DNA from: a virus
Virus record (IMG/VR): IMGVR_UViG_3300028800_000061
Span: 95,824-159,823 of that record
Reading direction: 5' to 3' (one strand)
DNA: 64,000 bases
Of this stretch, positions 377 through 56,010 are shown in pieces; the first letter of the stretch is position 1, and every line of letters starts with the position of its first letter. Position numbers and translations under genes: made by a program. Under the pieces are notes generated by a model. It was given only the letters and a program-made list of their open reading frames with translations. It did not search any database and was not told the DNA's origin.

Positions 377-3300
377 CTATTTGGTTGCGAGCGTGAGACC
401 GTTAGTACCGTTCCTGCGGTTGTAACGCAGGGTGTACTTCTGGTCAGTAGCCTGAAGATTGCTGCCGGTCGGCCATTGCATCTTCAACGTCAAATTCAGT
501 GTCTGCTGGGAAGATGTGACACCGAACCCGCCCGCTCCTTGCGATGCGGCCAGGGCCACGCCTGTGGCCGGGTGCACAGTCCCAGGTGCAGTTGCGCTGC
601 TGAGCGCCCTCATGGCAGCAGTCACATGCGGCAGCCCGGCGATGATTCCTTGCGCGAGTCCTTGTGACACCATCATCCCGTGCTGGTACATCACCGTCGA
701 TGGCGACTTGATCCCCAGATCTTTCTTGATCTGGCTGACCATGCCTTTAGCGATCTTCGTCATTTCCTTCGTGATCGCTTTTTCTTGCGCTTCCAGCCCG
801 GATAGGAAACCCTTCCCGGCCTGGGCGCCCGAGTCATACATGGCGTTAGCGGCGGTTTGCCCAAGCGACTTAGACGCCGAAGTGATACCAGACTCGGCTT
901 TGTTGATCGCCTTAATGTTCCCCGGGACCTGCAATAGCGCCTTCGCGATGGCCAGGCCCTGCACGGGCCCGGCCTGGATGATCTGGTTGATGTAATCCTT
1001 GTTCAGCCCCAGTTTCGACAGTTGGCCGATCGCCGACTTGAACTGGTTTATCTGGGACAGGTCGGCCTGCAAGTTGGCCAGAATGTTCTGCGAGGTGATC
1101 GGCCCGCTACCCGCTGCCGACACGAGATCAAACGTGCCAGCGACGCTACTGGCCGTGTTCGTGGCGAACGTTTTCGCCTTGGAAATCGTTGACATGATCG
1201 CGGATCGTTTGGTGGCGAGGGCTTGCAGTTTGTTGTTGTCAGCCTCGATCCACTTGGTTACGTTGCTCTCCGTCTGAGAGGAGATATCGCCCGCGTCAAA
1301 CGCTTCCTTGATGTAGGTGACCAGTTTCCCGGCTGCCGATTTGACTTTCGACGCAGTTCCCTCAAGTCCCGCGACTATGCCGTTGCCGATTTCAACCGCA
1401 ATGTTCTGCATGACCTTCGACGGTGAGCTGATCCCGAGCACGCTCTTGATTGACGATATGGCCGCGCTGCCGATACTGCCTGCCGCGTCACGTACGGCCC
1501 CGAGGGACGCGGTGATTCCGTGAACGAAACCCATGATCAGGTTCTTGGCCAGGTCGTACAGCAACGTGACCGCACCGTTGAAAATGGTCCGCATCACGTT
1601 GAGGATGCCGTGGATCTCATCCGAGGTCAGTTTTTTCAGGTCGGTCCACGCTTTCGCCCAGTGCCCGGTGATGATGTCCAGGAACAGTGCGATGGCGTCG
1701 CGGATTATGGCCAGCTCGGCGCGGATTAGCGCGGCGACAGTATCCCAGACTAGTTTAACCGTGTCGCGTATCAGGCCCCACGCGATAGTCCATGCGGCTT
1801 TAATCACTGCCAGGTCGATTTTGATCGTCGCGATTATCTCGGCGAGATACGTCTTGACGATGAAACTTACAACCGCCCAGACGACCCGTGCGACCTCTTC
1901 GATTTCCTTGTGGTTCTGCTCCCACCACACCCTGAATGCTGCAATCTGCTGCTTCACAAACACAAGCGGGCCGTGAACGAACCAGTCGATCACGGCACCC
2001 GCGGCGCGCATCGCCACCGCCCAGGCGGATTTGAAAGCGTTCGCGACATCATGAACGATGTCACGGACCAGTTTGCTGTGCTCATACAGTTCGTACAGGC
2101 CAAGCGCGAGTGCGCCGATCGCAATGATCGCGACACCGACGGGGTTAGCTGAGAGAACTGCGCCAAGGCCCTCCACCGAGGCGGTGACCAGCTCCACCCC
2201 CACCGCGATAGCGATAACCGCCCCAGCGAACGCCGCCATCTTCTCGTGGTGGGAAATGAACTCCATGAACTTGTCAACCGCCCGCACGACTTTGGTGAAG
2301 ATGGGCAGCAGTTTCGTCCCGAAAGTGATGACCAGGTTCTCGACATCGGCGAGGAACTGAGTCCAGGCGAAGTGCGCTGTCTTCTCCGTCTCAGACCACG
2401 ACTTGCCGTATCCTGATACCGCCTTGCCTATGCCTTCGTACTTGGTTCTGATGTTGTCCAGATTCGACATCAGGGACAGCATGGCTTTGTCGGACCGGCC
2501 GCCGCCGAACAGTTTCGCCATGACCTGCGAGGCCTGGGCTGCTGACAGCCCGGACGCTTTGAAGGCTTTCTCCATGTCCGACAACGCGATGTAGATGCCG
2601 TCAGGTTTCCGCAGATCCGTGGCGATCTTGTTGACTGTCAGCCCGTAGGAATTCATCACATCGGCCAGCGACTTGTTTTTCAACGTGATATTGTCGGTCG
2701 CCAGTCCAAGTGACCGCAGGAACGTGTTCGCCTCCTTCGACCCTGATGTGACCATGGAAAGCCCCATGGTCAACCGGGTTGAAGCTGTCTCCGCAGTGTT
2801 ACCCCGGTCAGTCAGGTACGCCAAGGCCGCACCCATTGACCGGATCGAAATGCCCATGGCCGCGGCGGTAGGCGCCCAGTTCTTAATTGACTGGTTAAAG
2901 TTCTGGAAGCGCATGTCGCCCTGGCCGACGATCGCGTTCAGCAACCCGGCGGTCTTGGCGGCGTCACTGGTGTTCAGGTTGAACGCCTTCATCACCGATG
3001 ACAGGGCGTACGTTGTGTCTTCCAGATCGGCGCCGTGGATCTGCGCGAGCTTGGCCGAGTTGGCGACAGTCGCAAGCGAGTTACTCAGACTCAGGCCAGC
3101 GCTAATTGGGTGGTAGAGAGCCGTCGCGATGGCTGTGCCAGATTCCCCAGTCTGGTATCCGATCTGGAGGATCTTCTGGGACAGTGCGGCCATGCTTATA
3201 CCGGTCAAGTGCGCGGCGGTGTACAACTGGGTGACGGCAGCCTGAAACTTCATCGCTTTGTCGATGGAGTAACCCACGGCGACTGCGACTCCGGCGATGG

Positions 3301-4066
3301 CCAGCTTCGTTGCTGAGCCGAGTCCGGCCATCGCGCCGGCGTTCCGCTCGTTCGCGGCCGCTTCCTCGTTGGCCATATCCCGTGTCAGCCGCTCGTCCGC
3401 TGCCAGGGTCTGCTGAGCTTTCGCCGAGGTCGCCGCAGCCCGGGCGGACGCTATGTGGGCATCCCGGAGTGCCGCTTGCACCTCGAGGGCGCTCTTGGCC
3501 ATGTCCGCTTCGAGCGCCTCAGCTTCAGCGAGCTTGGATTCGGCGGCCGCCGCTTCAGCCGCCGACGCAGCCAGCGCTCTCTGCTCCTCCGCTGCTGCTG
3601 CGGCGGCGGCGCCGGCCCGCTCAGCTCCGGCAGCCGCCTCAGTTGTCGCCTCGCCGGCGGCCTGCGCACCGGCGGCGAGGCGCGCTTCCGCTGCGGCAGC
3701 CTCGGATGCGGCGTCGATTGCGCGGGCGAGCCCATCCACCAGCAGCCACTCGGCTGAGGTGAGATCTGTTTCGGCGGCGACGGTTTGCATGGCCGCGGTG
3801 GACAGTTCCTCTTGCGCCGCGGCCTGCTCGGTCGCGGCTGCTGTCGCAGCCTCGGATGCTGCGGTAGTGTCGGCGGCGCCGGTTGCGATCCCGCCCGCGC
3901 TGACCGCACCAGCGGTTGCCTCGGTTGATGCGCGAGCCAGATCTTGCACCTCAGCGATTGAGGCCATCAGCCGCTCGTTGCTGGCGATCATCTCGTCGAT
4001 GCCCGCAACCCATTTACTGGCATCCGCGACAAACTCTTCGATCGCTGGTGGCAGCAGTTCAGACAC
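377..4066 (-). CDS. Tail tape measure protein
   Basis: At 1229 aa this is the longest single reading frame of the window. It sits directly after the tail chaperone region, the standard position for the tape measure protein that sets tail length and helps DNA ejection. Residues 1-260 are Ala/Glu-rich and predicted coiled coil. The middle (about 260-600) resembles the phage minor tail/tape-measure core, with ALYHPISAG and SSVMKAFNL. A hydrophobic block near residues 600-660 (MAAFAGAVIAIAVGVEL region) may be a membrane-spanning segment. The C-terminus has two LGIxSPSxVM repeats typical of tape measure proteins. The start is a GTG 3 nt after the stop of the preceding gene. Confidence 0.93.
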   Translation of the reverse strand: MSELLPPAIEEFVADASKWVAGIDEMIASNERLMASIAEVQDLARASTEATAGAVSAGGIATGAADTTAASEAATAAATEQAAAQEELSTAAMQTVAAETDLTSAEWLLVDGLARAIDAASEAAAAEARLAAGAQAAGEATTEAAAGAERAGAAAAAAAEEQRALAASAAEAAAAESKLAEAEALEADMAKSALEVQAALRDAHIASARAAATSAKAQQTLAADERLTRDMANEEAAANERNAGAMAGLGSATKLAIAGVAVAVGYSIDKAMKFQAAVTQLYTAAHLTGISMAALSQKILQIGYQTGESGTAIATALYHPISAGLSLSNSLATVANSAKLAQIHGADLEDTTYALSSVMKAFNLNTSDAAKTAGLLNAIVGQGDMRFQNFNQSIKNWAPTAAAMGISIRSMGAALAYLTDRGNTAETASTRLTMGLSMVTSGSKEANTFLRSLGLATDNITLKNKSLADVMNSYGLTVNKIATDLRKPDGIYIALSDMEKAFKASGLSAAQASQVMAKLFGGGRSDKAMLSLMSNLDNIRTKYEGIGKAVSGYGKSWSETEKTAHFAWTQFLADVENLVITFGTKLLPIFTKVVRAVDKFMEFISHHEKMAAFAGAVIAIAVGVELVTASVEGLGAVLSANPVGVAIIAIGALALGLYELYEHSKLVRDIVHDVANAFKSAWAVAMRAAGAVIDWFVHGPLVFVKQQIAAFRVWWEQNHKEIEEVARVVWAVVSFIVKTYLAEIIATIKIDLAVIKAAWTIAWGLIRDTVKLVWDTVAALIRAELAIIRDAIALFLDIITGHWAKAWTDLKKLTSDEIHGILNVMRTIFNGAVTLLYDLAKNLIMGFVHGITASLGAVRDAAGSIGSAAISSIKSVLGISSPSKVMQNIAVEIGNGIVAGLEGTASKVKSAAGKLVTYIKEAFDAGDISSQTESNVTKWIEADNNKLQALATKRSAIMSTISKAKTFATNTASSVAGTFDLVSAAGSGPITSQNILANLQADLSQINQFKSAIGQLSKLGLNKDYINQIIQAGPVQGLAIAKALLQVPGNIKAINKAESGITSASKSLGQTAANAMYDSGAQAGKGFLSGLEAQEKAITKEMTKIAKGMVSQIKKDLGIKSPSTVMYQHGMMVSQGLAQGIIAGLPHVTAAMRALSSATAPGTVHPATGVALAASQGAGGFGVTSSQQTLNLTLKMQWPTGSNLQATDQKYTLRYNRRNGTNGLTLATK

Positions 4067-4069
4067 GGT

Positions 4070-4504
4070 TCACGGCCTGATCACGACAGATTTGAACCGG
4101 CTCCGGGCGGTTCGGCTCAGAGCGCCGGAGGCTTCGATCCGTTCCTTGGCCGGCCGGAGATATGGCCGCGCGGGCAGCGTTGAGCCGCGGCCCGCGGTCC
4201 CTCCCAGTTCCTGTATCCGCGCGTAGGGGACAGTGCCGCCGACAGCTACCGACGACCGCGCGCCACCTGCGGGGCCCTGCTTGATGGTGATCGAGGCGCG
4301 CAAGTTCCCGCTGATCCGCGCGGGCGGCTCACCAGGCGGCGACGGCGTCGGCGTGTGAGGTGCGTGCGACCGGCGGGACAACTCGTCCCGCTGCACCTCG
4401 GAAACCATCAGGGATGCCATGGCGAGCGCGGCCGCACGCGCCCCCCAGGGTGCCCGGTCGCGTATCCTCTGCAGTTTCTCGTTGATCTCGCGGATGCTTG
4501 CCAC
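4070..4504 (-). CDS. HK97 gp10-like head-tail/tail completion protein
   Basis: The 144-aa product has the layout of the HK97 gp10 family: a helical N-terminus, then PPARISGNLRASI, VPYARIQELGG and LPARPYLRPAKE, the recurrent signature of these small tail-completion proteins. It starts at a GTG and ends 3 nt before the tape measure start. Its place between the chaperones and the tape measure is unusual; gp10-like genes more often lie between the connector and the tail terminator. Confidence 0.75.
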   Translation of the reverse strand: MASIREINEKLQRIRDRAPWGARAAALAMASLMVSEVQRDELSRRSHAPHTPTPSPPGEPPARISGNLRASITIKQGPAGGARSSVAVGGTVPYARIQELGGTAGRGSTLPARPYLRPAKERIEASGALSRTARSRFKSVVIRP

Positions 4505-4526
4505 ACCAGGTCACCCGCTTCCTGGC

Positions 4527-5071
4527 TCATTTCGGGTTGGACATGATCTGGGTGGCGTAATCGCGGGCCTCAGCGATTACCGGTGCGACAGTCGCCCAAT
4601 CGGACGGGAGTGCGTCTACTTGCTCGGGAGTCCACCCGTATCGCTCGGCGAACCAGGACCACTCGATGTACTCGTCAGGGAGCGGGCAGGCGGCGCCGGG
4701 TCGCCTGAGGAAGTAGTCGGCAAGACGCTGCCTGAGATGGTCTGGGGTTTTGGGCCGTTCAGCACCCGGTCGTAGACCGGACGGACCGCCTGGTACAAGG
4801 CGTCCTGATCGTCCATGGAGAGGTTGTTCAGGATCGCGTCACCGTCAACCGCTTGCCCTGGCAGCGGCTGCGCCAGCGTCCAGCCGATGATCATGCGTTT
4901 CAGCAGGGCATACATGATGCGGTCTTCGAGTTCGGCGGTGAATACCCGCGACTCGTCCCCGTTGATGGTGATGGAGATCGCGCCGCGGGCAGCTCGCCGG
5001 TCTCCTCCGTTGGGCTCGTCACGCAGATCGGCGTGATTGCCGGCGGACAGTTGCACGCGCAAACCAGTCAC
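4527..5071 (-). CDS. Tail assembly chaperone, long (GT-type) frameshift product
   Basis: This is the predicted -1 frameshift product of the chaperone gene. Ribosomes read 108 codons in the zero frame to CCCAAAA (4754-4748), slip back one base and add 73 residues, giving 181 aa. The extension reads through ADYFLRRPG, EYIEWSWFAERYGW and APVIAEARDYATQIMSNPK. A G/GT chaperone pair just upstream of the tape measure gene is conserved in long-tailed phages, where both forms guide tail tube assembly. The -1 frame is open exactly from the heptamer to the stop at 4527. Confidence 0.8.
4616..5071 (-). CDS. Tail assembly chaperone, short (G-type) product
   Basis: This is the 151-aa zero-frame product, starting at GTG 5071 with AAAGGA upstream (MTGLRVQLSAGNHADL). 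It carries a conserved-looking central part (FTAELEDRIMYALLKRM, SMDDQDALYQAVRPVYDRVL) before the slippery site. The last 43 residues after the slip site are Ser/Thr/Pro-rich with no obvious fold, as usual for the short form. Confidence 0.85.
   Translation of the reverse strand: MTGLRVQLSAGNHADLRDEPNGGDRRAARGAISITINGDESRVFTAELEDRIMYALLKRMIIGWTLAQPLPGQAVDGDAILNNLSMDDQDALYQAVRPVYDRVLNGPKPQTISGSVLPTTSSGDPAPPARSLTSTSSGPGSPSDTGGLPSK
4748..4754 (-). other. -1 ribosomal slippery heptamer CCCAAAA (tail chaperone)
   Basis: The zero-frame codons are C CCA AAA, a canonical X XXY YYZ site. After slipping, the tRNAs re-pair as CCC AAA and the -1 frame continues for 73 codons. The same heptamer occurs at the portal/MuF junction. 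Confidence 0.75.
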
Positions 5072-5125
5072 AGTCCTTTCAGGCAGGTAGCTGAATACAG
5101 CAGATGGTTTGTTGAAGGCAGCCGG

Positions 5126-6373
5126 TCAGTAGTTGACGACCGCGTTTGTGACCTGCACGACCGCCGGTGAGTACCCGCCTGATGGGCCAGCGTTAGTGGT
5201 GTTAGCCACTGCCTGGACCGTCATGTTGTACCCGAAGGTCGTTTTCGAGTCCTCGATCTGGCCTGTGTCATACGCGGCGACTTGCGCGCTGATAACCACC
5301 TGGACCAGGTTCGCGCCGACCAGGCCGTTGGTTGTCGTGATGGCCAGTGTCGGCTGAGTGTTGTTCAGGTACTCAAGGAACGGCGACTCGTCAATAGCCG
5401 GGTCGTACATGAGCGAGAATGTCGCATCAAGCTCACCGCGTGGGATGGCGAACGGTGTCTGCTGCCCGGCGTTAGTGAACTTCGGGTCAACTTTCCGGAT
5501 GAACGTTGATTTCCATTCCATGATGTTGTTCACCGGGGAGCCGCCGACACTGATTGTTGTCTGCCAGTCCGCGTACGGCTTCACGGTCGAAATAGTCGCA
5601 GTCGGGGGCGCCCCGGCCACCGCTGACGAGAACGATGTGGCTTTCCCGTCCCACATCAGCAGCGCTGTTGCGGTACCTGTGAATGACACTTCCGAGAAGC
5701 ACGTGTACGCGTAAGCCCGTGCGCCCACTGATGCGGTGACCCCGGTGTAATCGGTGAACGTGTGCGTCGGTGGCTGCGCCGTCGACCAGCCACCTGCACC
5801 GAGCCCGTTGTTCAGCAGGGAGAAGTTGTGCACGTAGGTGGTGACCGCGCTGTACGGGGTGACCGCCGCTCCGGACAGGTGGTTCTGGTACAGGGGGCTG
5901 CTCAGCGTCACCGTGGTGGACACCACGTTGGTGACAGTCCGCACCTCCTCTGCGGTGGTCCCGAGGGCGCCGACCGCGATAGTGGTGCCGTTACTGATGC
6001 CAGTCGCCGACGTCACGGAGATGGTGGCCGCGCCGGCTGTGTAGCCGGAGGCGAGAGTGGTAGGGGTGGCGGAGGTGCCGTTAACAGCCTGCCAGTAATC
6101 CCCGAAAATGTTGACCAGTGGGTACCCGACACCGTCACCGAAAACCGGGGCTTCCATTTCGAGATCACCGATCTCAACGCCCTGGATCAGGTTGTACAGC
6201 CCGGCCATGGCGTTCCGCCATGCGGTGTCTTTCAGGTAGGTGATGTTGTCTTTGGGTGTGAATTTGGTCAACGGCATGGTTGCCGTGGGATCGACTGCGG
6301 TTCCCGGGGTGACCTCTTTCGCCACGCCGATAAACCTTCTGGTAACCGGGAAGACAGCACTTGCGGTGCTCAT
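5126..6373 (-). CDS. Major tail protein (tail tube)
   Basis: The 415-aa product lies between the tail terminator region and the chaperone pair, the usual place of the major tail subunit. The N-terminal half has a tail-tube character (RRFIGVAKEVTPGTAVDP, then IEWKST-like segments later). A Thr/Ser/Gly/Val-rich insertion around residues 105-180 (TTLASGYTAGAATISVTSAT) looks like a surface beta-sandwich. The start overlaps the stop of the upstream gene (ATGA). Confidence 0.85.
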   Translation of the reverse strand: MSTASAVFPVTRRFIGVAKEVTPGTAVDPTATMPLTKFTPKDNITYLKDTAWRNAMAGLYNLIQGVEIGDLEMEAPVFGDGVGYPLVNIFGDYWQAVNGTSATPTTLASGYTAGAATISVTSATGISNGTTIAVGALGTTAEEVRTVTNVVSTTVTLSSPLYQNHLSGAAVTPYSAVTTYVHNFSLLNNGLGAGGWSTAQPPTHTFTDYTGVTASVGARAYAYTCFSEVSFTGTATALLMWDGKATSFSSAVAGAPPTATISTVKPYADWQTTISVGGSPVNNIMEWKSTFIRKVDPKFTNAGQQTPFAIPRGELDATFSLMYDPAIDESPFLEYLNNTQPTLAITTTNGLVGANLVQVVISAQVAAYDTGQIEDSKTTFGYNMTVQAVANTTNAGPSGGYSPAVVQVTNAVVNY

Positions 6374-33329: not shown

Positions 33330-33608
33330 TCATGACCATACCCCGTCCGGGCCCGGGCCTGGCAGCGGGCCGCGGCGTTCCTCCGTGCCGGTGTACCGGT
33401 ACTCATAGACGGAGATCTCAACCGGCTGGTACATGACATACCGGGCCAGGATCACCCTCGGGCCGGCGCGATCGGCGCGGGTGGCGTAGAACCGCACCGC
33501 CGGCGGGATCGGGTGCTCCAGTACGCAACGCAGCCCATCCGCCGGGCCGCCAGCGTGGATCACCGTGGGAAAGCGCCCTGGTGGCGTGTACGTGCTGGCC
33601 CACTTCAT
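33330..33608 (-). CDS. Hypothetical protein after terminase, 92 aa
   Basis: The ATG at 33608 overlaps the terminase stop (ATGA). The product (MKWASTYTPPGRFPTVIHAG) ends in a beta-rich stretch (VILARYVMYQPVEISVYEYR). Co-translated with the large terminase; its role is unknown. Confidence 0.6.
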   Translation of the reverse strand: MKWASTYTPPGRFPTVIHAGGPADGLRCVLEHPIPPAVRFYATRADRAGPRVILARYVMYQPVEISVYEYRYTGTEERRGPLPGPGPDGVWS

Positions 33609-35086
33609 GCGGCCGCCTCCGGCACCACCCCAGCGGGTGTGCCACAGAACGGGCAGACGTCGTGGCCCTCGACGATGTACGGCTCCCGGCACACGCCGCA
33701 AGCCGTGACGCCGTATGCGCCGAGCCAAGAGCCCTGCGACAGGCCGCGCAGCTCAGTGACCGCCCACACCAGCGCGTCCACCCGGTCCGGGCTGAACGGC
33801 GAATCGGGCACCCACGCGCACATCTGGTCCTCGAGCTGCGGGAAGCACCCGACATGGTGCATCCGGCGTTGCTCGTACAGGGAGGACACCGGCTCGGCCC
33901 GGACCCGCTTGCCGCGAGACGCGCGAACCGATTTGTACGGCACCAGCGGATCGACAGCGCGCAGCAGCGAGCGGATGTAATCGCCGCCGTTGTTCACCTC
34001 AGCGACAATCGAGTCCGCCTCGTAAGTGTGGTACGCGCGGACCGCGGCGCGCATGCACGCATCAGGCGTGCCGCGCATCGTAAGGTCAGCCAGGACGTAC
34101 CCGTGGCCGTCCGGGCCCTCGCCGACGACCACAAGGCCGGTTTCGTCAGCCTCCTCACCGGATGTGACAGCTGGATCGATCGCCACCACGACACGGTGCA
34201 GATCTGGGACCTGGTTGAGGGTGATGCGGGTTTCGTCGATATCCGCCCTGGCCCACAGTGCGCCGTCGACGTCCTCAAGCAGCTCGCCCTCTAGCTCCTG
34301 GCGGCCGAGGCGGGTGCCGCCGTACCGGCGCCGGAGTTCTTCAAGGGCCGCCGGTGCCAGGTTGTCCGAGTTCTCCCAGGTGGATCCTCTGGTGATGTGG
34401 ACGGATCCGTCGTTGCGGGTGGCCAGATCGCGGATCAGCGGGACCACCCGCGGTGTGGTGGTCACCACGACACGCGGGAACTGCCCGACCCGCAGAGCGG
34501 GGATCAGGCCCTCGTACCAGGCGGCCGGGTAACGCCACGAGCCGACCTCATCGCACCAGGCGCCGTGCAAGTTCGCGCCACGGAGCCGCTCCGGCTGATC
34601 AGCGGAGTACCCGTATATCACCGATCCGCCGGCCAGCACGATCTGCATCTCGTTACGCCGGTACGCGGTCAGCTCACCCGGCCGCAGCGCCTGCAAAATG
34701 CCAGTGGTGCCCTCCACGCAGGTTTTACGGACATCACGGAACGTCGGGGCGATCACCGCCCACTCCGAGCCGGGTGTGCCCATGGCCTGCTCGACAAGCC
34801 AGTTGGAGCCGGTGAACGTTTTCCCGGTTCCACGGCCAGCGAGCAGCAGCCAGACGTGCCACGACTGGTCGTGGCGGTCGCAGCCGCAGGAGAACCCGTT
34901 GCGGTCGGGCTCGTGGTGCCGCGGGTCGTCAGGCGGAAGTTGCTTCGGCCTTGCCGTCGCTCGCCACGGCCTGGGCCCGTGAGCTTGACGCAACGCGAGC
35001 TCGGCCGCCAGGCGGTCCTTCAGGCGTTGTTTCTGCTCCGGCTCCAGATCGCGCCAGCTCTGCAACAAGGCGCTCGATTTCGGCAT
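33605..35086 (-). CDS. Terminase large subunit
   Basis: The 493-aa product has a Walker A (GRGTGKT, residues 84-90) and a Walker B with catalytic acid (HGAWCDE, about 174-180), giving the DNA-packaging ATPase. A C-terminal RNase H-like nuclease domain begins at VVVAIDPAVTSGEEADETGL. The protein ends in a zinc-ribbon (CGVCREPYI..CPFCG). A CGCDRHD insertion precedes the Walker A. The chosen ATG 35086 overlaps the small subunit by 158 nt; longer in-frame starts would overlap more. It packages the genome through the portal. Confidence 0.92.
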   Translation of the reverse strand: MPKSSALLQSWRDLEPEQKQRLKDRLAAELALRQAHGPRPWRATARPKQLPPDDPRHHEPDRNGFSCGCDRHDQSWHVWLLLAGRGTGKTFTGSNWLVEQAMGTPGSEWAVIAPTFRDVRKTCVEGTTGILQALRPGELTAYRRNEMQIVLAGGSVIYGYSADQPERLRGANLHGAWCDEVGSWRYPAAWYEGLIPALRVGQFPRVVVTTTPRVVPLIRDLATRNDGSVHITRGSTWENSDNLAPAALEELRRRYGGTRLGRQELEGELLEDVDGALWARADIDETRITLNQVPDLHRVVVAIDPAVTSGEEADETGLVVVGEGPDGHGYVLADLTMRGTPDACMRAAVRAYHTYEADSIVAEVNNGGDYIRSLLRAVDPLVPYKSVRASRGKRVRAEPVSSLYEQRRMHHVGCFPQLEDQMCAWVPDSPFSPDRVDALVWAVTELRGLSQGSWLGAYGVTACGVCREPYIVEGHDVCPFCGTPAGVVPEAAA

Positions 35087-35510
35087 CCAAGCCGTCCTGG
35101 ATTTCGACTTTCGCCTGAACTGGTGCATCCAGGCCGAGAAGTTTCGCGCGGCGCTCACTGATTTTCAGCAGGCGGTCAAGGGCGTGCAGTTTCGGCATGT
35201 CGTCGGTGAGGACATCACCGGTTACCGGGTGAACGACCGCGCGGCCCTGGGAGACGGATATGTGCTCACGGGCGACTACCCGCCATGCGATACGCGCCAT
35301 GTCGTCGAGCCGGTCGAGTTCCATTTGGCGGACTTCGCCGACCATCTCTTTGGATTGGTCGCGGATCGCGCGGGTGATCGCGTCGTACGCCGATGATGGT
35401 GACCGGTAACCGAGCTGGGTAGCGATCTGCCGGTGGTTGAGGCCGCGGCGGCGCAGCTCTACGGCCTGGTTGTCGCGTTCACGGTCGGCGACGCTACGGC
35501 GGCGCGGCAT
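34929..35510 (-). CDS. Terminase small subunit
   Basis: The 193-aa product (MPRRRSVADRERDNQAVELR) begins with an HTH (RRRGLNHRQIATQLGYRSPS) that recognises the packaging site. A helical oligomerisation region follows (VRQMELDRLDDMARIAWRVV; LHALDRLLKISERRAKLLGL), then a Gly/Ala/Arg-rich tail. ATG 35510 has AAGGGGGG upstream. It is coupled to the large subunit. Confidence 0.85.
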   Translation of the reverse strand: MPRRRSVADRERDNQAVELRRRGLNHRQIATQLGYRSPSSAYDAITRAIRDQSKEMVGEVRQMELDRLDDMARIAWRVVAREHISVSQGRAVVHPVTGDVLTDDMPKLHALDRLLKISERRAKLLGLDAPVQAKVEIQDGLDAEIERLVAELARSGAGAETTPEGPPGGRARVASSSRAQAVASDGKAEATSA

Positions 35511-49638: not shown

Positions 49639-49836
49639 GTGGCCGACACTGAGATCCGGCCCGGCCAGGTTGTGTGGTGCTGGGGTGATGACACCTGCGA
49701 TCACACTTACCGAGGCCTGGTGATCGAGGCCGAACCGCCGCGGTGGTACCGGGTGCGATTCACGTTCGGGACGGTGTGGGTGCCGGGCGGGTGGCTACTG
49801 GTGGATGCCAGCCAGCTCGTACGCCTGCCGGACTGA
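49639..49836 (+). CDS. Small beta-rich protein, 65 aa
   Basis: The GTG-started product (MADTEIRPGQVVWCWGDDTC) continues WYRVRFTFGTVWVPGGWLLV, an SH3-like pattern. Its end overlaps the convergent gene by 42 nt. Unknown. Confidence 0.5.
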   Translation: MADTEIRPGQVVWCWGDDTCDHTYRGLVIEAEPPRWYRVRFTFGTVWVPGGWLLVDASQLVRLPD

Positions 49837-50175
49837 TACCCCCAGCGAGCGGACCACCTCAGCTTGATCACGCAATGTCCGCAGGTGGTCTTGCGCGGAC
49901 TCGCGGATCACTGTCGCCCGGTCGTAGGCGAACTCCAGGTCGGAGACTTGCTCGTCAACCCACGCGTCCCGCTCGGCGGTAGTCGTGCCGCCGCGGGCTA
50001 CCTTTGGGGCCTGGCCGGCGAGGAGTGCGCGGCGGCGGGCCCGCTTGTACTCGTGCTTCGCGTTGACCTCAAGGTCGCGGGCTTGGGCGAGTGCGACGCG
50101 GGCCCGGCCGAGCTCGTTGACCAGGGTGCGCAGCTTGGACTCAATCTCGACGGGGGTGAGCGCGTCACCGTTCAT
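49795..50175 (-). CDS. Coiled-coil protein, 126 aa
   Basis: The product (MNGDALTPVEIESKLRTLVN) is helical with a basic stretch (HEYKRARRRALLAG). It is the last gene of the leftward PAPS-reductase/ParB block, 3 nt behind the ParB-like gene. It may be an accessory factor of that system. Confidence 0.6.
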   Translation of the reverse strand: MNGDALTPVEIESKLRTLVNELGRARVALAQARDLEVNAKHEYKRARRRALLAGQAPKVARGGTTTAERDAWVDEQVSDLEFAYDRATVIRESAQDHLRTLRDQAEVVRSLGVSVRQAYELAGIHQ

Positions 50176-50178
50176 GAT

Positions 50179-50688
50179 TTACGTCGTCCAGCCCTCGGAG
50201 AACCCGTCGCCGGCGCCGCGTTTCGTCATCTGGCCCCGGTCGGCCAGGCGGGATACTTCTTCCTGGTCCATTTCCAGGCGGGCGCCGATCTCATGCGGGT
50301 CCATGCCAAGATCGAGCAGGTCCGCGATGATGTCGGCCATCGCGAGGACGTAGTGGGTGCCGCGGGCCCGGTTGTGGCGGATGGTGGCCATGCGCGCGAC
50401 ATCGGGCGGGCACTCGGCGAGGGTGACGATCGGGACCAGGCCGCCGGTGAGTGCAGCGATCTGCTTGTCCTCGGCGACAAGCCAACGGTGGTAGCCGTCA
50501 ACAATTTCTAGGCGCTCACCGCCGTCGTGCTCACGGACAACGATCGGCTGTGTCCACCCGTTCTCGAGGATGGAGATTTTCAGCAGCCGTTTCTCCGGCG
50601 GGGCTTGCCGGTTGGGATTCCAGTCGTTGCTGCTCAGGGCATCGCGGGGCACCCATCGCACAGCGGAGATGGGTTGCGTTTCGATCAA
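50179..50688 (-). CDS. ParB-like protein (IbrB-like), PAPS-reductase partner
   Basis: The 169-aa product starts at TTG 50688, which overlaps the previous stop (TTGA) and has GAAGGAA upstream. It has a ParB/sulfiredoxin N-domain: SAVRWVPRDALSSNDWNPNR, LLKISILENGWTQPIVVREH, and IVDGYHRWLVAED (the DGYHR box). An HTH-like helical end follows (DPHEIGARLEMDQEEVSRLA). A PAPS-reductase-like gene directly followed by a ParB-like gene is the arrangement of IbrA/IbrB pairs. Confidence 0.8.
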   Translation of the reverse strand: MIETQPISAVRWVPRDALSSNDWNPNRQAPPEKRLLKISILENGWTQPIVVREHDGGERLEIVDGYHRWLVAEDKQIAALTGGLVPIVTLAECPPDVARMATIRHNRARGTHYVLAMADIIADLLDLGMDPHEIGARLEMDQEEVSRLADRGQMTKRGAGDGFSEGWTT

Positions 50689-52001
50689 GGGAGTTCCTTC
50701 GCATACGGCGGGATCAGCGCGTACGGGTCCGGTGGTGGCGGTGTGGGGGCGGCCAACTCGACGTAGGTGCCGTCGGCGATGATCTGGGTGAGTTCGGCGG
50801 CGTACTTGTGCCAGATGTGCGGGGCTGGGATGCCTTTGCCGATGACTGGGACGCGGGCGGCTGCGGTCGCGGAGCGGCGGTCTTTGAAATCGCCGCGCAT
50901 CGCGATCGACAGCAGGTAATCCCACGACACCCCCGATTCGGGGTGGGGGGTGCGGATCACCATCGGGTCACTGGTTTTGCGGTAGTGACGGCCTAGTGCG
51001 TCGCGGACCCTTTTGATGACGATCGGCCGGTCAGCCGGGCCGAATTTCTGGATGTACCTGGTCAGGAAATCGGGCCACAGCATGCCCTCTGGTTTCTGGG
51101 GGCGTTTGTGGTAGCCGTACAGTTCGGTGAGCGCGTACCTGACTGCGGATCCTGCACCGGGTACCCGTTCGGCCATCTTGCCCCAGACATCGGGGAAGCA
51201 GGAGGCGAAGGTGTGCAGTTTCTGCAGTGGTTCCTCACCGAACGCGGGTGAGCACCGCTGGCTGCTGTGCGGGATGCCGGCCATTTCGAACCGGTCGTAG
51301 GCCCGGTTGTAATCCCAGCCCTTGATGGCAGGTGCGGTCCACACGTCTTCTGTGGTCCAGTCGTACACCGGGTACGCTTTCCAGATGTTTCCGGCGGACT
51401 CACCCTCGGTGTATTTGATCATGTAGTTTTCGGATGCGTGCCGCAGCAGCGCCCATGTGCGGGTCCGCGATTCCTGGGCGCGGATGCCCATAAGGGTTGC
51501 GCAGTTGCCCTGGCCGGCAGTGAACATGAGCCCATCCGATTGCGGGATCGTCAACCTGGCTGCTGCCGGTTCGGCGGGAAACCCGGCCAGGACCGTGATC
51601 GCTTCCGGTGGCAGGGGCCGGCACCATTTGTCGCGGGACTCCGGCGCCCACGGCCACCAGTACGGGAACTCCCGCGAGCACGCGTTGCGGTGCTTCACCG
51701 GCAGGCAGTACCACTCCAAGGCGATGTCGTCGCGCTGGCCCATCCGGCGGACGTACTCTTCGGTTTCGAGCGGGATCGCTTCCTCGTCGAAGAAGCAGGC
51801 GCGCAACGGCAGGTGCCGTTCAAAACGGGGATCGGAGTGCGCGACCTCTAGGGCGATGTTGAGTACCGCGGTGGAATCCTTGCCGCCGGAGAACGCGACC
51901 CTGATGTTGTCGAACCGTTCCATGATGGTGGCGGTCCGCTCCAGGGCGAGGGTGTAAACGTCCTGTTCTGCTGGCCTTCGGGACAGCAGGTGGTAGGACA
52001 A
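50685..52001 (-). CDS. PAPS-reductase-like PP-loop protein 1 (IbrA/DUF3440-like)
   Basis: The 438-aa product (TTG start) has the PP-loop SGGKDS (38-43) used to bind ATP or a related nucleotide. It also has the PAPS-reductase family layout, with a Cys/Trp-rich insertion (WYCLPVKHRNACSREFPYWW, DKWCRPLPPEAI). The C-terminal half (CSPAFGEEPLQKLHTFASCF) resembles DUF3440. It is about 60 percent identical by eye to PP-loop protein 2. It pairs by overlap with the ParB-like gene. Substrate unknown; DNA or RNA modification or regulation has been proposed for relatives. Confidence 0.85.
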   Translation of the reverse strand: MSYHLLSRRPAEQDVYTLALERTATIMERFDNIRVAFSGGKDSTAVLNIALEVAHSDPRFERHLPLRACFFDEEAIPLETEEYVRRMGQRDDIALEWYCLPVKHRNACSREFPYWWPWAPESRDKWCRPLPPEAITVLAGFPAEPAAARLTIPQSDGLMFTAGQGNCATLMGIRAQESRTRTWALLRHASENYMIKYTEGESAGNIWKAYPVYDWTTEDVWTAPAIKGWDYNRAYDRFEMAGIPHSSQRCSPAFGEEPLQKLHTFASCFPDVWGKMAERVPGAGSAVRYALTELYGYHKRPQKPEGMLWPDFLTRYIQKFGPADRPIVIKRVRDALGRHYRKTSDPMVIRTPHPESGVSWDYLLSIAMRGDFKDRRSATAAARVPVIGKGIPAPHIWHKYAAELTQIIADGTYVELAAPTPPPPDPYALIPPYAKELP

Positions 52002-52075
52002 CGTGGCCCCCTGCCGGGTTACAGTCGGAAGCTAAGACGCTGTTCCTGTCGCGGCTTGCAGGGCCGGGGATGGTG

Positions 52076-53404
52076 TCAGGGCCGGGCTGGCGGGCTAACG
52101 CCGGCCCGGCCTGCTGCCCAGGCGTACGGCGGTATGAGCGAGTACGGGTCTGCGGGCGGCGGAACTGGGGCGGCCAGCTCGGCGTAGGTGCCGTCGATCA
52201 TGATTTGATGCAGTTCGTCTGCGTACTTGTGCCAGTACCCGGGCAGCGGACGGCGCTGGGCGTCGTTGAGGATCCGGCCGCCGGCGTGCTTACGTGATTT
52301 GAAATCGCCGCGCATCGCGAGCATGAGCAGCCAATCCCACGACAGGCAGGTGTCCGGGTGTGGTGCGTGGACGACGATCGGGTCTGCGGTCATCTGGTAG
52401 TGGCGGGCGAGCAGCAGCTTGATCTTCCCCGCGATAGTGGCAGCGTCACCGGGGCGGAACTGGCGCAGGTAGTGGCCGATGAAATCGGGCCACGCCAGGC
52501 CGGGTGGTTTGGCCGGGCGGCCGTGGTAGGAGTAGAGCTCGGTGCGCGCGTAGCGGACTGCGGCGCCGACACCTGGTACCCGCTCGGTCATCTTGGACCA
52601 CACATCAGGGAAGCACGCCGCGTAGGTGTGGATTTTCTGCAACGGTTCCTCACCGAACGCTGGGGAGCACCGTTGGATGGAGTGGGAGACGCCAGCCATC
52701 TCCATCCGGTCATACGCCCGGTTGTAATCCCAGCCTTTCACCGCTGGTGCGGTCCACACATCCTCAGTAGTCCAGTCGTACACCGGGTACGCTTTCCACA
52801 GGTTGCCCTGGCTTGTGCCATCATCAGATTTGACCAGGTAGTTGTCAATTTTGCGGGCGGTCACCGCCCGGCGGCGGGTCAACGATTCCTGCGCCCGGAT
52901 ACCCATGAATATCGCGGTGTTGCCGCGCTCGACGGGAGCGAGCAGCCCGTTCATCTCCGCTGTGGTCAGCCGGCTCTCGACAGGCCAGATCGGGAACCCT
53001 GGCAGCTCGGTGATGGCTTCCGGTGGGAGGGGGCGGCACCATTTGTGCTTGTCCTCCGGGGCCCACGGGTACCACCAGGGGTGCGTGCGGGAGCACGCGT
53101 TGCGGTGCTTCACCGGCAGGCAGTACCACTCGCAGTTGATGTCGTCGCGGGCGGCGATCCGCCGTACGTACTCCTCGGTTTCGACCGGGATCGCTTCCTC
53201 GTCCTGGAAGACGGTACGCAACGGCAGATGCCGGGCGTACTTCGGATCGGAGTGGGCGACATCGAGGATGACGTTCAAGGTGGCGGTGGAATCTTTGCCG
53301 CCGGAGAACAGGACAAACACCCGGTCGAAGCGGGCCAGCACAGAGGCGGTACGTTCCATCGCCAGGGTGTAGACGTCCTGCCCGGCTGGCCGTTTCGGCA
53401 GCAT
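52076..53404 (-). CDS. PAPS-reductase-like PP-loop protein 2
   Basis: The 442-aa product (ATG 53404) has SGGKDS (34-39). It shares long blocks with PP-loop protein 1 (KHRNACSR, AYPVYDWTTEDVWTAPA, KGWDYNRAYDR, RCSPAFGEEPLQK), so the two arose by duplication. It differs in the loop before the DUF3440-like half and at the C-terminus. Two non-identical copies suggest a heteromer or two substrates. Confidence 0.85.
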   Translation of the reverse strand: MLPKRPAGQDVYTLAMERTASVLARFDRVFVLFSGGKDSTATLNVILDVAHSDPKYARHLPLRTVFQDEEAIPVETEEYVRRIAARDDINCEWYCLPVKHRNACSRTHPWWYPWAPEDKHKWCRPLPPEAITELPGFPIWPVESRLTTAEMNGLLAPVERGNTAIFMGIRAQESLTRRRAVTARKIDNYLVKSDDGTSQGNLWKAYPVYDWTTEDVWTAPAVKGWDYNRAYDRMEMAGVSHSIQRCSPAFGEEPLQKIHTYAACFPDVWSKMTERVPGVGAAVRYARTELYSYHGRPAKPPGLAWPDFIGHYLRQFRPGDAATIAGKIKLLLARHYQMTADPIVVHAPHPDTCLSWDWLLMLAMRGDFKSRKHAGGRILNDAQRRPLPGYWHKYADELHQIMIDGTYAELAAPVPPPADPYSLIPPYAWAAGRAGVSPPARP

Positions 53405-53430
53405 GGTGGCCAACCGCCGGACCCCTTCTC

Positions 53431-54030
53431 TCAGATGGTGACGATCTGCCCGGGCGGGAGTTCGGCAGCAGCGGGCCCGGCTGGCCAGGAGCACAAGTAG
53501 GTGCCGTTCCCGTGCTCCCAGGTCCACAGCGGGTGGTAGTGGCGGGTGGCGTACAGGTGCCCGTCCTGGTCGGCGATGACGATCGCCCACGCTTCCTGAA
53601 CGGCTCCCGCGGTGAGGTCAGCTAGCGCACCCAAAGGTGATTTGACCTGCCGGGCGGCGGCGTACGCGACCGCGAAAGCGATCGTGTCGGTGGCTTGCGA
53701 GACGGCGAAGGTGTCCGCGTTGTAGATGCAGCCGTTGTGCGCGACACCGTGGCCGCCGCGCAGGACCGGCTGCAGCTGGGTCAGGTCCTGCCAGTCACCG
53801 AACGAGGCCAGGCGGGTGTGCCCGAGGATCTGGTGCGCGCCGAGGGCACGGATATCTTTCGCGCTGACCGCGATCGGGCCCGCGCGGTGCACCGTGCTGT
53901 ACCCGCCGTCCGGGTCGCGGGTCATCCACCCGTGGCCGTGTGGCCCGCGGCGGCCAGCCGCGATAGCGGCCCGCTCGAGCATGCCAGGATCAGGTGGGCC
54001 CGTGCCGTTGTAGGCGAAAATTCCGCACAC
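53431..54030 (-). CDS. Class II glutamine amidotransferase-like protein
   Basis: The 199-aa product starts at GTG 54030 directly followed by Cys (VCGIFAYNG). An N-terminal Cys nucleophile after Met removal is the hallmark of class II Gln amidotransferases. GHTRLASFGD and VAHNGCIYNADTF match the substrate-site boxes of the family. There is no synthetase domain, so it must hand ammonia to a partner, perhaps the adjacent PP-loop proteins. It lies between PP-loop genes 2 and 3 in the same operon. Confidence 0.8.
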   Translation of the reverse strand: MCGIFAYNGTGPPDPGMLERAAIAAGRRGPHGHGWMTRDPDGGYSTVHRAGPIAVSAKDIRALGAHQILGHTRLASFGDWQDLTQLQPVLRGGHGVAHNGCIYNADTFAVSQATDTIAFAVAYAAARQVKSPLGALADLTAGAVQEAWAIVIADQDGHLYATRHYHPLWTWEHGNGTYLCSWPAGPAAAELPPGQIVTI

Positions 54031-54038
54031 GCCCGGCC

Positions 54039-54839
54039 TCAGTCGCGGCCGGTGCGCTGCATCCACTCCGCTGCCTGCGGGAGGACTGTGGCGGCGTGGC
54101 GGATGACATCCGGGTCGATCGACCAGCACTCGGAGAATCCGTGATCGGTGGAGTGGGTCCACTGGCGTGCTGGCCACGGGCCTGTGCCGACCTGGTAGCC
54201 GCGTGGCCAGTCGTAGCACGGTGGCAACGGCAGATTCTCGCGGGCGATCAGCGCCAGGGCATGCTCATGGGTCCAGTCGGCGAGCGGGGACCAGTAGGTG
54301 ACACCGCGGGAGTTGGTGTACCTGTCGGCTTCACCGGGGCCGACGTAGTTGCCGTCTTTGCGGCGGCGGCCGAGCAGGAGCATGTCCAGTTTCTGTGCGC
54401 GGAAGTAGTCGCGCTGGGCCCGGTGCTGCACCACGGAGAACCACCGTGAGCCGTGGCGGCCCTGGGGAAACAGCATGACCGGGCGGGCGGCGAGCCACGC
54501 CAGGTCGATGGGGACAGCGCCGATCTCGCAACCGGGTGGCATGTGGTCGGTCAGCCAGCGGAGCATCGCCGGCCACTCCAGGCCGGTGGTCATGCCGAGG
54601 ATGCATTCGGGGACGCCGGCCAGCTCTGCGACGTGCCGGAGAATCTGGGAGTCTTTCCCTCCGGACCAGCCGTATGCGAGCCGGCGGCCGCCGGCCAGTT
54701 CGCTGGTGATGCCGGTGACCGCTTTGTCGACGAGCGCGTCGAGTTCGCTGTCAGTGACGGTTTCGCGGGCCCACTTGGCGGCTTCCTGCCATGCGGCAGC
54801 GTCGGAGATGTGCTGCTTGCGGCCGAGTGCGCCGGTCAA
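54039..54839 (-). CDS. PAPS-reductase-like PP-loop protein 3
   Basis: The 266-aa product has SGGKDS (59-64) preceded by LAYGW, and a MRTG-like MTTGLEWPAMLRWL specificity region. It is closer to classical PAPS reductase/adenylyl-transferase size and only distantly related to PP-loop proteins 1 and 2. It overlaps the cupin gene start by 4 nt. Confidence 0.8.
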   Translation of the reverse strand: MTGALGRKQHISDAAAWQEAAKWARETVTDSELDALVDKAVTGITSELAGGRRLAYGWSGGKDSQILRHVAELAGVPECILGMTTGLEWPAMLRWLTDHMPPGCEIGAVPIDLAWLAARPVMLFPQGRHGSRWFSVVQHRAQRDYFRAQKLDMLLLGRRRKDGNYVGPGEADRYTNSRGVTYWSPLADWTHEHALALIARENLPLPPCYDWPRGYQVGTGPWPARQWTHSTDHGFSECWSIDPDVIRHAATVLPQAAEWMQRTGRD

Positions 54840-55267
54840 TCTGCCTGGTCCCCTGCGTAGATCGGGCGGTCGAGCAGTGTGCCGTCCCAGTCGGTGAACG
54901 CCATCCGCTCAGGTGAGTCGACTGGTTTGTGGGGTGCGCCGATGGCGATAAGCACGTGGCCGCGTGGCCCGGCGCCGACAGCGTGCGGGACCTGGCCGTC
55001 CACCATGTACAGGTCGCCGGGGATCACATCGTAGGTGATGCCCGCGACGCTGATGGTGCCGGTACCCGCGAGGCAGTACAGCAGGTGATCGCCGGGGTGC
55101 GTGTGGACGGGGAAGCTCCGGCCTGCTGGGACGCGGAGAATGTCAGCGCCGAGGTGCCCGTTGGTGTGCAGGCCAAGGCCGGTTGCGGGTGCCCCGTGGA
55201 CGGGGACACCTTCGGTGATGACTTTGAGCGACGCGTCGGCCAGGTTGATGATTTTCAGGTCGGTCAC
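54836..55267 (-). CDS. Cupin-fold protein
   Basis: The 143-aa product has the cupin metal site HTHPGDHLLY and the second box PGDLYMVDGQVPHAV. Cupins are small metal-binding barrels, often dioxygenases, isomerases or sensors. Its place between the ParB and PP-loop genes suggests a role in the same modification pathway. Substrate unknown. Confidence 0.8.
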   Translation of the reverse strand: MTDLKIINLADASLKVITEGVPVHGAPATGLGLHTNGHLGADILRVPAGRSFPVHTHPGDHLLYCLAGTGTISVAGITYDVIPGDLYMVDGQVPHAVGAGPRGHVLIAIGAPHKPVDSPERMAFTDWDGTLLDRPIYAGDQAD

Positions 55268-56010
55268 TGGGCCTCCCCGGGCTGCAGGTAGGCGCGGGCG
55301 ATCGCTGTTACTGCGTCAGCGGATGTTGGCAGGCCAAGGTTCTGCTTCGCGGTGGTGACTGCCCGCTGGATCAGGTCACGCTGGTATGTGGAGACCATCC
55401 AGGAGACTTGCACCCATCTGTGTGTGTCCTCGCCGGCTGGCGGGGCGGCCTGGCCATTGCCGCTGGGCGCCGGTGGCGGTGTCGTGTCCAGTGGCGGTGG
55501 CCCTGGTTGCGGTGGCCCGGGCGGGAGCGGGTCACCGGGCGGGCCCGGCCATTTTGAGGGGTCGTTGAAGTCGTTGAGGAAACCTGTGGCCTGGTCGGCG
55601 AGTGCGCCGCTGGTCCTCATGATTTCGGTGACCGCGCGCTCGTCGAACCCGGTGCCGGACAGGTCCTCGTCGAGGGCGGTGAGCAGGTCGGCTAGCAGCC
55701 GGTCGTCGTAGGCGCCCATGTCGGAGAGCCGGTTGTCGGCCAGGTTGATCCGGATGGCTTCATCATCTGTGCAGGTGATGATTTCGCAGCGTGCTGTCTC
55801 CTGGCCTTCGGCTTCGAGGGCGTCACGGGTGTGGTTGCCGGCGAGAATGATCAGGCCGTCCGGTCCATCCCGCACGACAAGGGACCGGTACTGGCCGTTC
55901 CGCCGGATGCTGCCCCTGATCTCGTCCGTGTTGCCGCGGCGCGGGTTGCCGGGGAATCTGGTGAGCTCGGCTAGCGGGATGTCGCGGACTGCGATCCAGG
56001 TGGCAGGCAT
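55264..56010 (-). CDS. ParB-like protein with Pro-rich linker
   Basis: The 248-aa product has a ParB N-domain (IPLAELTRFPGNPRRGNTDE, IRRNGQYRSLVVRDGPDGLI, ILAGNHTRDALEAEG) and a helical part with acidic motif (INLADNRLSDMGAYDDRLLA). A long Pro/Gly linker and a C-terminal helical unit (QRDLIQRAVTTAKQNLGL) follow. It heads the PP-loop/GAT/cupin operon. ParB-like phage proteins may act as CTP-linked or nuclease modules; the role here is unknown. Confidence 0.8.
   Translation of the reverse strand: MPATWIAVRDIPLAELTRFPGNPRRGNTDEIRGSIRRNGQYRSLVVRDGPDGLIILAGNHTRDALEAEGQETARCEIITCTDDEAIRINLADNRLSDMGAYDDRLLADLLTALDEDLSGTGFDERAVTEIMRTSGALADQATGFLNDFNDPSKWPGPPGDPLPPGPPQPGPPPLDTTPPPAPSGNGQAAPPAGEDTHRWVQVSWMVSTYQRDLIQRAVTTAKQNLGLPTSADAVTAIARAYLQPGEAQ

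Follow-up and report, generated by a model that had tools for sequence, protein, structure and literature searches.

The stretch of virus DNA analysed here, a window of 64,000 nucleotides (nt) that forms the right-hand 64 kb of the 159,823-base IMG/VR record IMGVR_UViG_3300028800_000061 (positions 95,824 to 159,823), carries an operon in which two ParB-fold proteins, three PP-loop enzymes, a glutamine amidotransferase and a cupin are encoded together. This raises the question of what such a set of proteins might make and to which molecule the product might be attached. Reading from the genes alone, we tentatively propose, with slightly less than even confidence, that the operon encodes a phage system for the hypermodification of nucleic acid, most likely DNA, with an exchangeable small-molecule supply. 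The record has a phage terminase at 33605-35158. The operon consists of eight minus-strand genes, running from position 56010 down to 49795 with ends that overlap or almost touch, and the gene calls and family matches bear out the content and order given in a preliminary description of this DNA:

55264..56010, minus strand: ParB2, a ParB-fold protein (phrog_723, 2.2e-40)
54836..55267, minus strand: single-domain cupin (Cupin_2, 6.1e-12)
54039..54839, minus strand: PP3, a small PP-loop ATP pyrophosphatase of the PAPS reductase family (PAPS_reduct, 1.8e-6)
53431..54030, minus strand: GAT, a stand-alone class II glutamine amidotransferase, an N-terminal nucleophile (Ntn) hydrolase (GATase_6, 1.5e-6)
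52076..53404, minus strand: PP2, an IbrA-like PP-loop protein with PAPS_reduct and DUF3440 matches (phrog_2302, 6.6e-76)
50685..52001, minus strand: PP1, an IbrA-like PP-loop protein, 64% identical to PP2 (phrog_2302, 6.8e-77)
50179..50688, minus strand: ParB1, an IbrB-like ParB-fold protein (ParB_N, 7.4e-7; phrog_2159, 1.9e-56)
49795..50175, minus strand: coiled-coil protein, the last gene of the operon (phrog_1389, 3.8e-19, an uncharacterised phage family)

The GTG start of the cupin gene overlaps the ParB2 stop codon, the TTG starts of PP3 and ParB1 overlap the stop codons of the cupin gene and PP1, respectively, and GAT starts with GTG 8 nt past the end of PP3. A search of the related loci found no homologue of the coiled-coil protein in their cassettes.

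Do these genes belong together? Scans of viral contigs with PP3 gave 24 loci, and 23 non-redundant PP3 loci are the base of the module counts given below. A GAT alignment query matched six loci, two of which were new, and a scan of the viral contigs with the single GAT sequence gave no match. Provided that the contig is long enough, ParB2, PP3, IbrA and ParB1 co-occur in the 23 loci, with L018 as an exception, and the usual order is ParB2-(module)-PP3-IbrA-ParB1 or (module)-PP3-ParB2-IbrA-ParB1. The preliminary description had named independent scattering of the genes in relatives as an outcome that would speak against it, and had called for a search for the same gene set in other phages. Annotation of the loci revealed that the core stays together and that the set recurs, with GAT and cupin as recurrent parts, which excludes chance as its source. 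The conservation of the operon across many phages strongly supports the earlier claim that the genes act in one pathway. The modification of nucleic acid, which had been suggested as a possibility, stands as the best explanation, given the type of ParB2, the apparently adenylating PP-loop enzymes and published phage ligase and amidotransferase precedents. What had not been seen is that GAT can be exchanged for other suppliers of small molecules in relatives. The PP3 cassette is rare among 50,697 phage records, as tblastn yielded a single fecal phage fragment for PP3 and no match for GAT. Among bacterial genomes, PP3 was found in two only, from Actinomadura and Streptomyces, and a survey of 394 genomes of one class found it in one, which was the one already known.

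GAT is a stand-alone protein of 199 residues, which opens with GTG-TGC, so that the Cys nucleophile that had been noticed directly behind the start codon is indeed present as Cys2. This residue, Arg73, His98-Asn99-Gly100 and Asp115 are invariant in five aligned sequences; GAT thus has the N-terminal Cys after Met, the Arg, the Asn-Gly oxyanion residues and the Asp of class II glutamine amidotransferases, and its profile matches PurF/GlmS glutaminase domains (3e-12). The GAT start lies between 16 nt inside PP3 and 8 nt after it in the window and in L011, L017, L018, L021 and L056/L057, and GAT adjoins PP3 in every GAT relative that has PP3. In L017 the remaining cassette genes are rearranged and the PP3-GAT pair is intact, which points to GAT as the partner of PP3. 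For two loci that are 98% identical, dN/dS is about 0.1-0.4 for all cassette genes, based on few changes.

The PP-loop enzymes were compared with families that share their fold. PP1 and PP2 are duplicates within the IbrA family and both match PAPS_reduct (4.5e-8 and 1.6e-10, respectively), DUF3440 and phrog_2302 (about 1e-76). An IbrB-type ParB_N protein, ParB1, follows directly, and its DG-HRW and NRARG motifs are invariant in an alignment of 17 relatives. The IbrA/IbrB-type pair recognised in the preliminary description is therefore present as PP1 and ParB1, both by sequence (phrog_2302, phrog_2159, DUF3440) and by gene order. PP3, which also matches phrog_424 (2.5e-25), retains an intact YGWSGGKDS motif, and none of the 24 residues that are invariant among 22 PP3 sequences is a Cys. 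The best Cys column is occupied in 13 of these 22 sequences and in 24 of 28 sequences of the IbrA family; as neither alignment contains an invariant Cys, sulfur transfer is unlikely. The conserved C-terminal catalytic Cys of PAPS reductase (CysH) is accordingly not conserved in PP3 and the IbrA family, which share its fold and PP-loop. The AlphaFold2 model of PP3 (pLDDT 95.7) matches PAPS reductase 2o8v and CysD 1zun with a Z score of 14.3 and the GMP synthase ATPPase with 12.5, and that of PP2 (pLDDT 86.6) matches the PAPS domain of FAD synthase best (Z 16), with CysD at 14.2. CysD and FAD synthase catalyse adenylyl transfer without a catalytic cysteine. On these models the PP-loop enzymes of the operon look adenylating, a common fold alone not establishing function. 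ParB2 has a proline-rich linker and a helical C-terminal part, and matches the N-terminal parts of phrog_498 'DNA methyltransferase' (7.6e-22) and PADLOC MTase_II (8.3e-8); these matches place it with the ParB domains that some phage DNA methyltransferases carry as fusions.

Which compound, then, might the core attach? A small-molecule gene lies beside PP3 in 22 of the 23 non-redundant loci, often with a 4-nt overlap of the ATGA type, L013 being the sole locus without a recognised one. Five loci (L027, L028, L030, L031 and L034) have no GAT and encode a DegT-type pyridoxal phosphate-dependent aminotransferase (2.5e-54) and a myo-inositol-phosphate synthase (1.6e-31), and some of them also GT25-like glycosyltransferases. 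The nearest relatives of this synthase in viral contigs are confined to the same five loci; it was identified with PF01658 and TIGR03450, as PF07994, which gave no match, is insensitive to actinobacterial enzymes and misses that of C. glutamicum used as a control. A sodium:solute symporter (SSF) is encoded in L010, L016 and L031, a 330-residue membrane protein that is probably a distant symporter relative by sequence (hhalign probability 89%) in L012, L014, L019/20, L022/23, L024 and L026, an ATP-binding cassette (ABC) permease with an SsuA/taurine-type binding protein in L029 and L032, and an Ldh_2 dehydrogenase in L015. Outside these cassettes, Menderavirus phages such as Stenotrophomonas phage Moby (L072, NC_048802.1 28981-30231) encode an inositol-3-phosphate synthase among their genes for 7-deazaguanine DNA modification (folE, queC-like, TGT-like and queE-like), which suggests that their modification may contain inositol too.

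The transporters are closely tied to the cassette. An alignment of the phage symporter matched 151 viral contigs, and in all of the best 80, which were examined (L087-L166), the symporter lies directly upstream of the cassette, with a median gap of -4 nt; 65 of these cassettes begin with PP3, nearly all of them as PP3-ParB2-IbrA-ParB1, and the other 15 consist of ParB2-IbrA-ParB1. Likewise, the 330-residue membrane protein directly precedes the cassette in 77 of its 79 best contigs (L167-L243; median overlap 4 nt), the two exceptions being short contigs that end nearby. At 90% identity, the 80 symporter contigs collapse to 55 clusters and those of the membrane protein to 61, and the GC content of the loci ranges from 0.33 to 0.63. 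When the 50,697 phage records were queried with the symporter, one match was obtained, in the record that also bears PP3. In Faecalibacterium phage Taranis, the membrane protein precedes ParB-IbrA-IbrB and terminase genes. We conclude that phages encode a dedicated sodium:solute symporter subfamily. Among transporters of solved structure, the urea symporter DUR3 is closest to it (7e-25), a match from which we claim no substrate.

Cupins may form a further part of this supply. Close homologues of the window cupin adjoin the cassette in L017 and L028/L061, and it occupies a slot comparable to that of two-domain bicupins, to which it is weakly related. In a census of 80 ParB1 loci, 52 have a bicupin that ends about 4 nt ahead of IbrA; a bicupin never occurs together with a transporter, either in this census (p 3.7e-4, relatedness ignored) or in 159 transporter loci. 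Cupin enzyme and importer behave as alternatives, which suggests that both supply a small molecule. The bicupins match Cupin_2/AraC_binding weakly, and no significant solved relative was found by sequence. In Mycobacterium phage Gaia, the IbrA-like gp103 is followed by gp104, an ectoine-synthase-family cupin (1.3e-32) fused to a ParB, whereas the window cupin is a separate gene, and no amidotransferase or PP3 is annotated nearby in Gaia. In Microbacterium phage Hendrix, IbrA is preceded by a GT25-like protein, a GNAT acyltransferase and proteins annotated as glucosyl- and methyltransferases. Arthrobacter phages Salgado and Laroye likewise bear IbrA/ParB cassettes. A candidate second cupin family (L030:12067-12792) was not counted, since Pfam gave no match for it and it is found behind the portal gene in phage PJN03. 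A cupin in L017 (9286-10395) bears a C-terminal extension that looks like uracil-DNA glycosylase by eye, the extension having no Pfam match.

We propose that ParB1 and ParB2 place the IbrA-like PP1/PP2 and PP3 on nucleic acid, where a PP-loop enzyme would adenylate the target oxygen, either a base carbonyl or a carboxyl group already on the base. A nitrogen nucleophile would then displace AMP. In the window phage, this nucleophile would be ammonia, which GAT may release from glutamine and pass to PP3, similar to the transfer in asparagine synthetase, GMP synthase and Gat-QueC, and the cupin might make or rearrange a further substituent or precursor. In relatives, the same core could be fed by an amino-cyclitol made by the aminotransferase and inositol-phosphate synthase, by an imported solute or by an ABC importer. 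That the core is kept while the supplier is swapped suggests that a small nitrogen compound is attached to phage DNA.

The nearest precedents act on phage DNA. CmoY is an AMP-forming PP-loop ligase that, with CmoA and CmoX, yields amides of 5-carboxymethylcytosine (5cxmC); a subset of CmoY homologues has a glutaminase domain for ammonia, others use amines, and they are often found near ParB genes (PMC12783734). Whereas CmoY is of the asparagine synthetase type, the PP-loop enzymes of the window are of the PAPS reductase/IbrA type, and CmoA (TIGR00740) is absent from 19 related records. In the Gat-QueC system, a glutamine amidotransferase is coupled to a PP-loop enzyme to make a modified base in phage DNA (PMC6884629). 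That 7-deazaguanine (archaeosine) pathway employs a fused protein of the QueC family and needs tRNA-guanine transglycosylase (TGT)/DpdA; in contrast, GAT and PP3 are separate proteins, and TGT/DpdA (PF01702) is absent from 24 records, many of which are fragments. In view of these precedents, and as ParB2 is of the methyltransferase-fused type, DNA is preferred as the target. PP1, PP2 and ParB1 belong to the IbrA/IbrB pairs of phages and E. coli by sequence and gene order, but whereas a plain pair such as that of Streptococcus phage CHPC1230 stands alone, the pair in the window is joined by PP3, ParB2, GAT and the cupin. We found this system described in none of the open-access papers searched, although the 2013 DNA-modification survey by Iyer et al. 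might mention it.

Other targets and chemistries have to be weighed against DNA hypermodification. The PP-loop base modifiers characterised so far act mostly on tRNA, and TilS, TtuA and NcsA are among the fold matches, so host or phage tRNA might be adenylated and joined to an amine donor, as TilS does with lysine; we consider this unlikely, since the cassette contains two ParBs, one of the DNA-methyltransferase-fused type, none of the proteins has a recognised tRNA-binding domain, the window is free of tRNA genes and TGT is absent from the 24 records. Slightly less probable is sulfur chemistry, either thiolation of a base or of the DNA backbone as in DndC-like phosphorothioation. Dnd and type 4 BREX (DndC/BrxP) share a PAPS-reductase-family PP-loop protein with the operon, Dnd also has the ParB-superfamily protein DndB, PP1 and PP2 show short, weak DndC matches (1.9e-8 over about 60 residues, below the cut-off; PADLOC 2e-8), and the ABC importers of L029 and L032 are similar to taurine/sulfonate systems. 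However, the operon lacks a DndA desulfurase and has an amidotransferase instead, to which sulfur chemistry gives no role; neither PP3 nor the IbrA family keeps an invariant Cys, and no cysteine desulfurase (Aminotran_5) was found in the 24 records, a function that a host desulfurase could take over.

A similarly low probability is given to a free nucleotide or small molecule as the target, for instance a modified dNTP, a nucleoside-like compound or a signal, with ParBs that only regulate or sense nucleoside triphosphates. ParB folds bind CTP, ATP or GTP (PMC12704722) and the accessory genes encode typical small-molecule enzymes and importers, but the cassettes showed no recurrent polymerase, kinase or nucleotide-pool enzyme, and the retention of two ParBs with the PP-loop enzymes suits a polymer better. 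It is improbable that IbrA and IbrB merely act as transcription co-activators of prophage genes, like E. coli IbrAB, with the extra genes serving another purpose. Homologues in phage records are annotated as 'co-activator of prophage gene expression', a description that follows Sandt et al. 2002 (cited in PMC10434257). This would leave the intact ATP pyrophosphatase motifs, GAT, the cupins, the aminotransferase and inositol enzymes and the linked transporters unexplained, and activation could itself result from DNA modification. Equally improbable is that the Ntn hydrolase trims a gamma-glutamyl group off an intermediate, like the amidohydrolase EgtC, and donates no ammonia: weak matches to TIGR03442 (7e-4) and the EgtC structure in PDB (6e-8) and its stand-alone nature would allow this, but PurF/GlmS glutaminases match better, and the overlap or near contact with the PP-loop gene in all PP3-linked relatives fits an ammonia-using partner.

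Several points weigh against DNA hypermodification as proposed here. A ParB domain alone is no proof of a DNA target, and we know of no biochemistry for any member of the cassette. In one locus (L328) GAT is present without PP3, which is itself missing from many cassettes; GAT may thus have partners besides PP3. Strict mutual exclusivity of GAT and DegT was dropped as evidence, since chance allows it (p about 0.17); carriers of GAT and of DegT fall into different regions of the PP3 tree, which is compatible with a single origin of each. Lastly, the symporter, membrane-protein and ParB1 loci (80, 79 and 80) are best-scoring matches and no random sample, and as they are top matches from metagenomic virus contigs, the counts are not independent and are inflated by related phages.

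A number of other genes were observed near the cassettes or elsewhere in the virus record. L011 has a putative LAGLIDADG-type homing endonuclease (2861-3472, by eye) between IbrA and ParB1 and, directly behind ParB1 on this virus contig, an aldehyde dehydrogenase (3841-5367; PF00171, 6e-158). Two contigs that are related to each other encode SET-domain proteins close to their PP3 cassettes (L013:6784-7293 and L015:9712-10254). The record that contains the window also encodes a fourth PP-loop protein of the PAPS reductase family, unlinked to the operon (L006:16286-17338), an IS605 OrfB/TnpB-like transposon protein (L009:4054-5598) and a divergent protein resembling C5-cytosine methylases, in which SPEC stands in place of the SPPC motif of CmoX enzymes (L006:6355-8364); encoded far from the operon, it may be an enzyme that modifies bases.

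Phages often carry IbrA/IbrB-like pairs, and we found no described chemistry for them in the open-access literature. With rather less confidence than for the operon itself, we speculate that phages harbour a large and hitherto undescribed class of DNA hypermodification systems. In these, two adenylating PP-loop enzymes that lack a catalytic Cys and are guided by ParB would attach a nitrogen-containing small molecule to DNA. A plug-in module would supply this molecule, which could be made by a cupin, from glutamine or from inositol phosphate with an aminotransferase, or be imported by a transporter that the phage encodes. The exchangeable supplier, including an importer that adjoins the cassette in every sampled symporter contig, turns the open question into a direct test, as its identity predicts what the DNA should contain: glutamine nitrogen here and, in relatives, either an amino-cyclitol or a solute that has been imported. 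If this is true, phages modify their DNA with imported metabolites, from which new modified bases and ways to escape restriction would arise.

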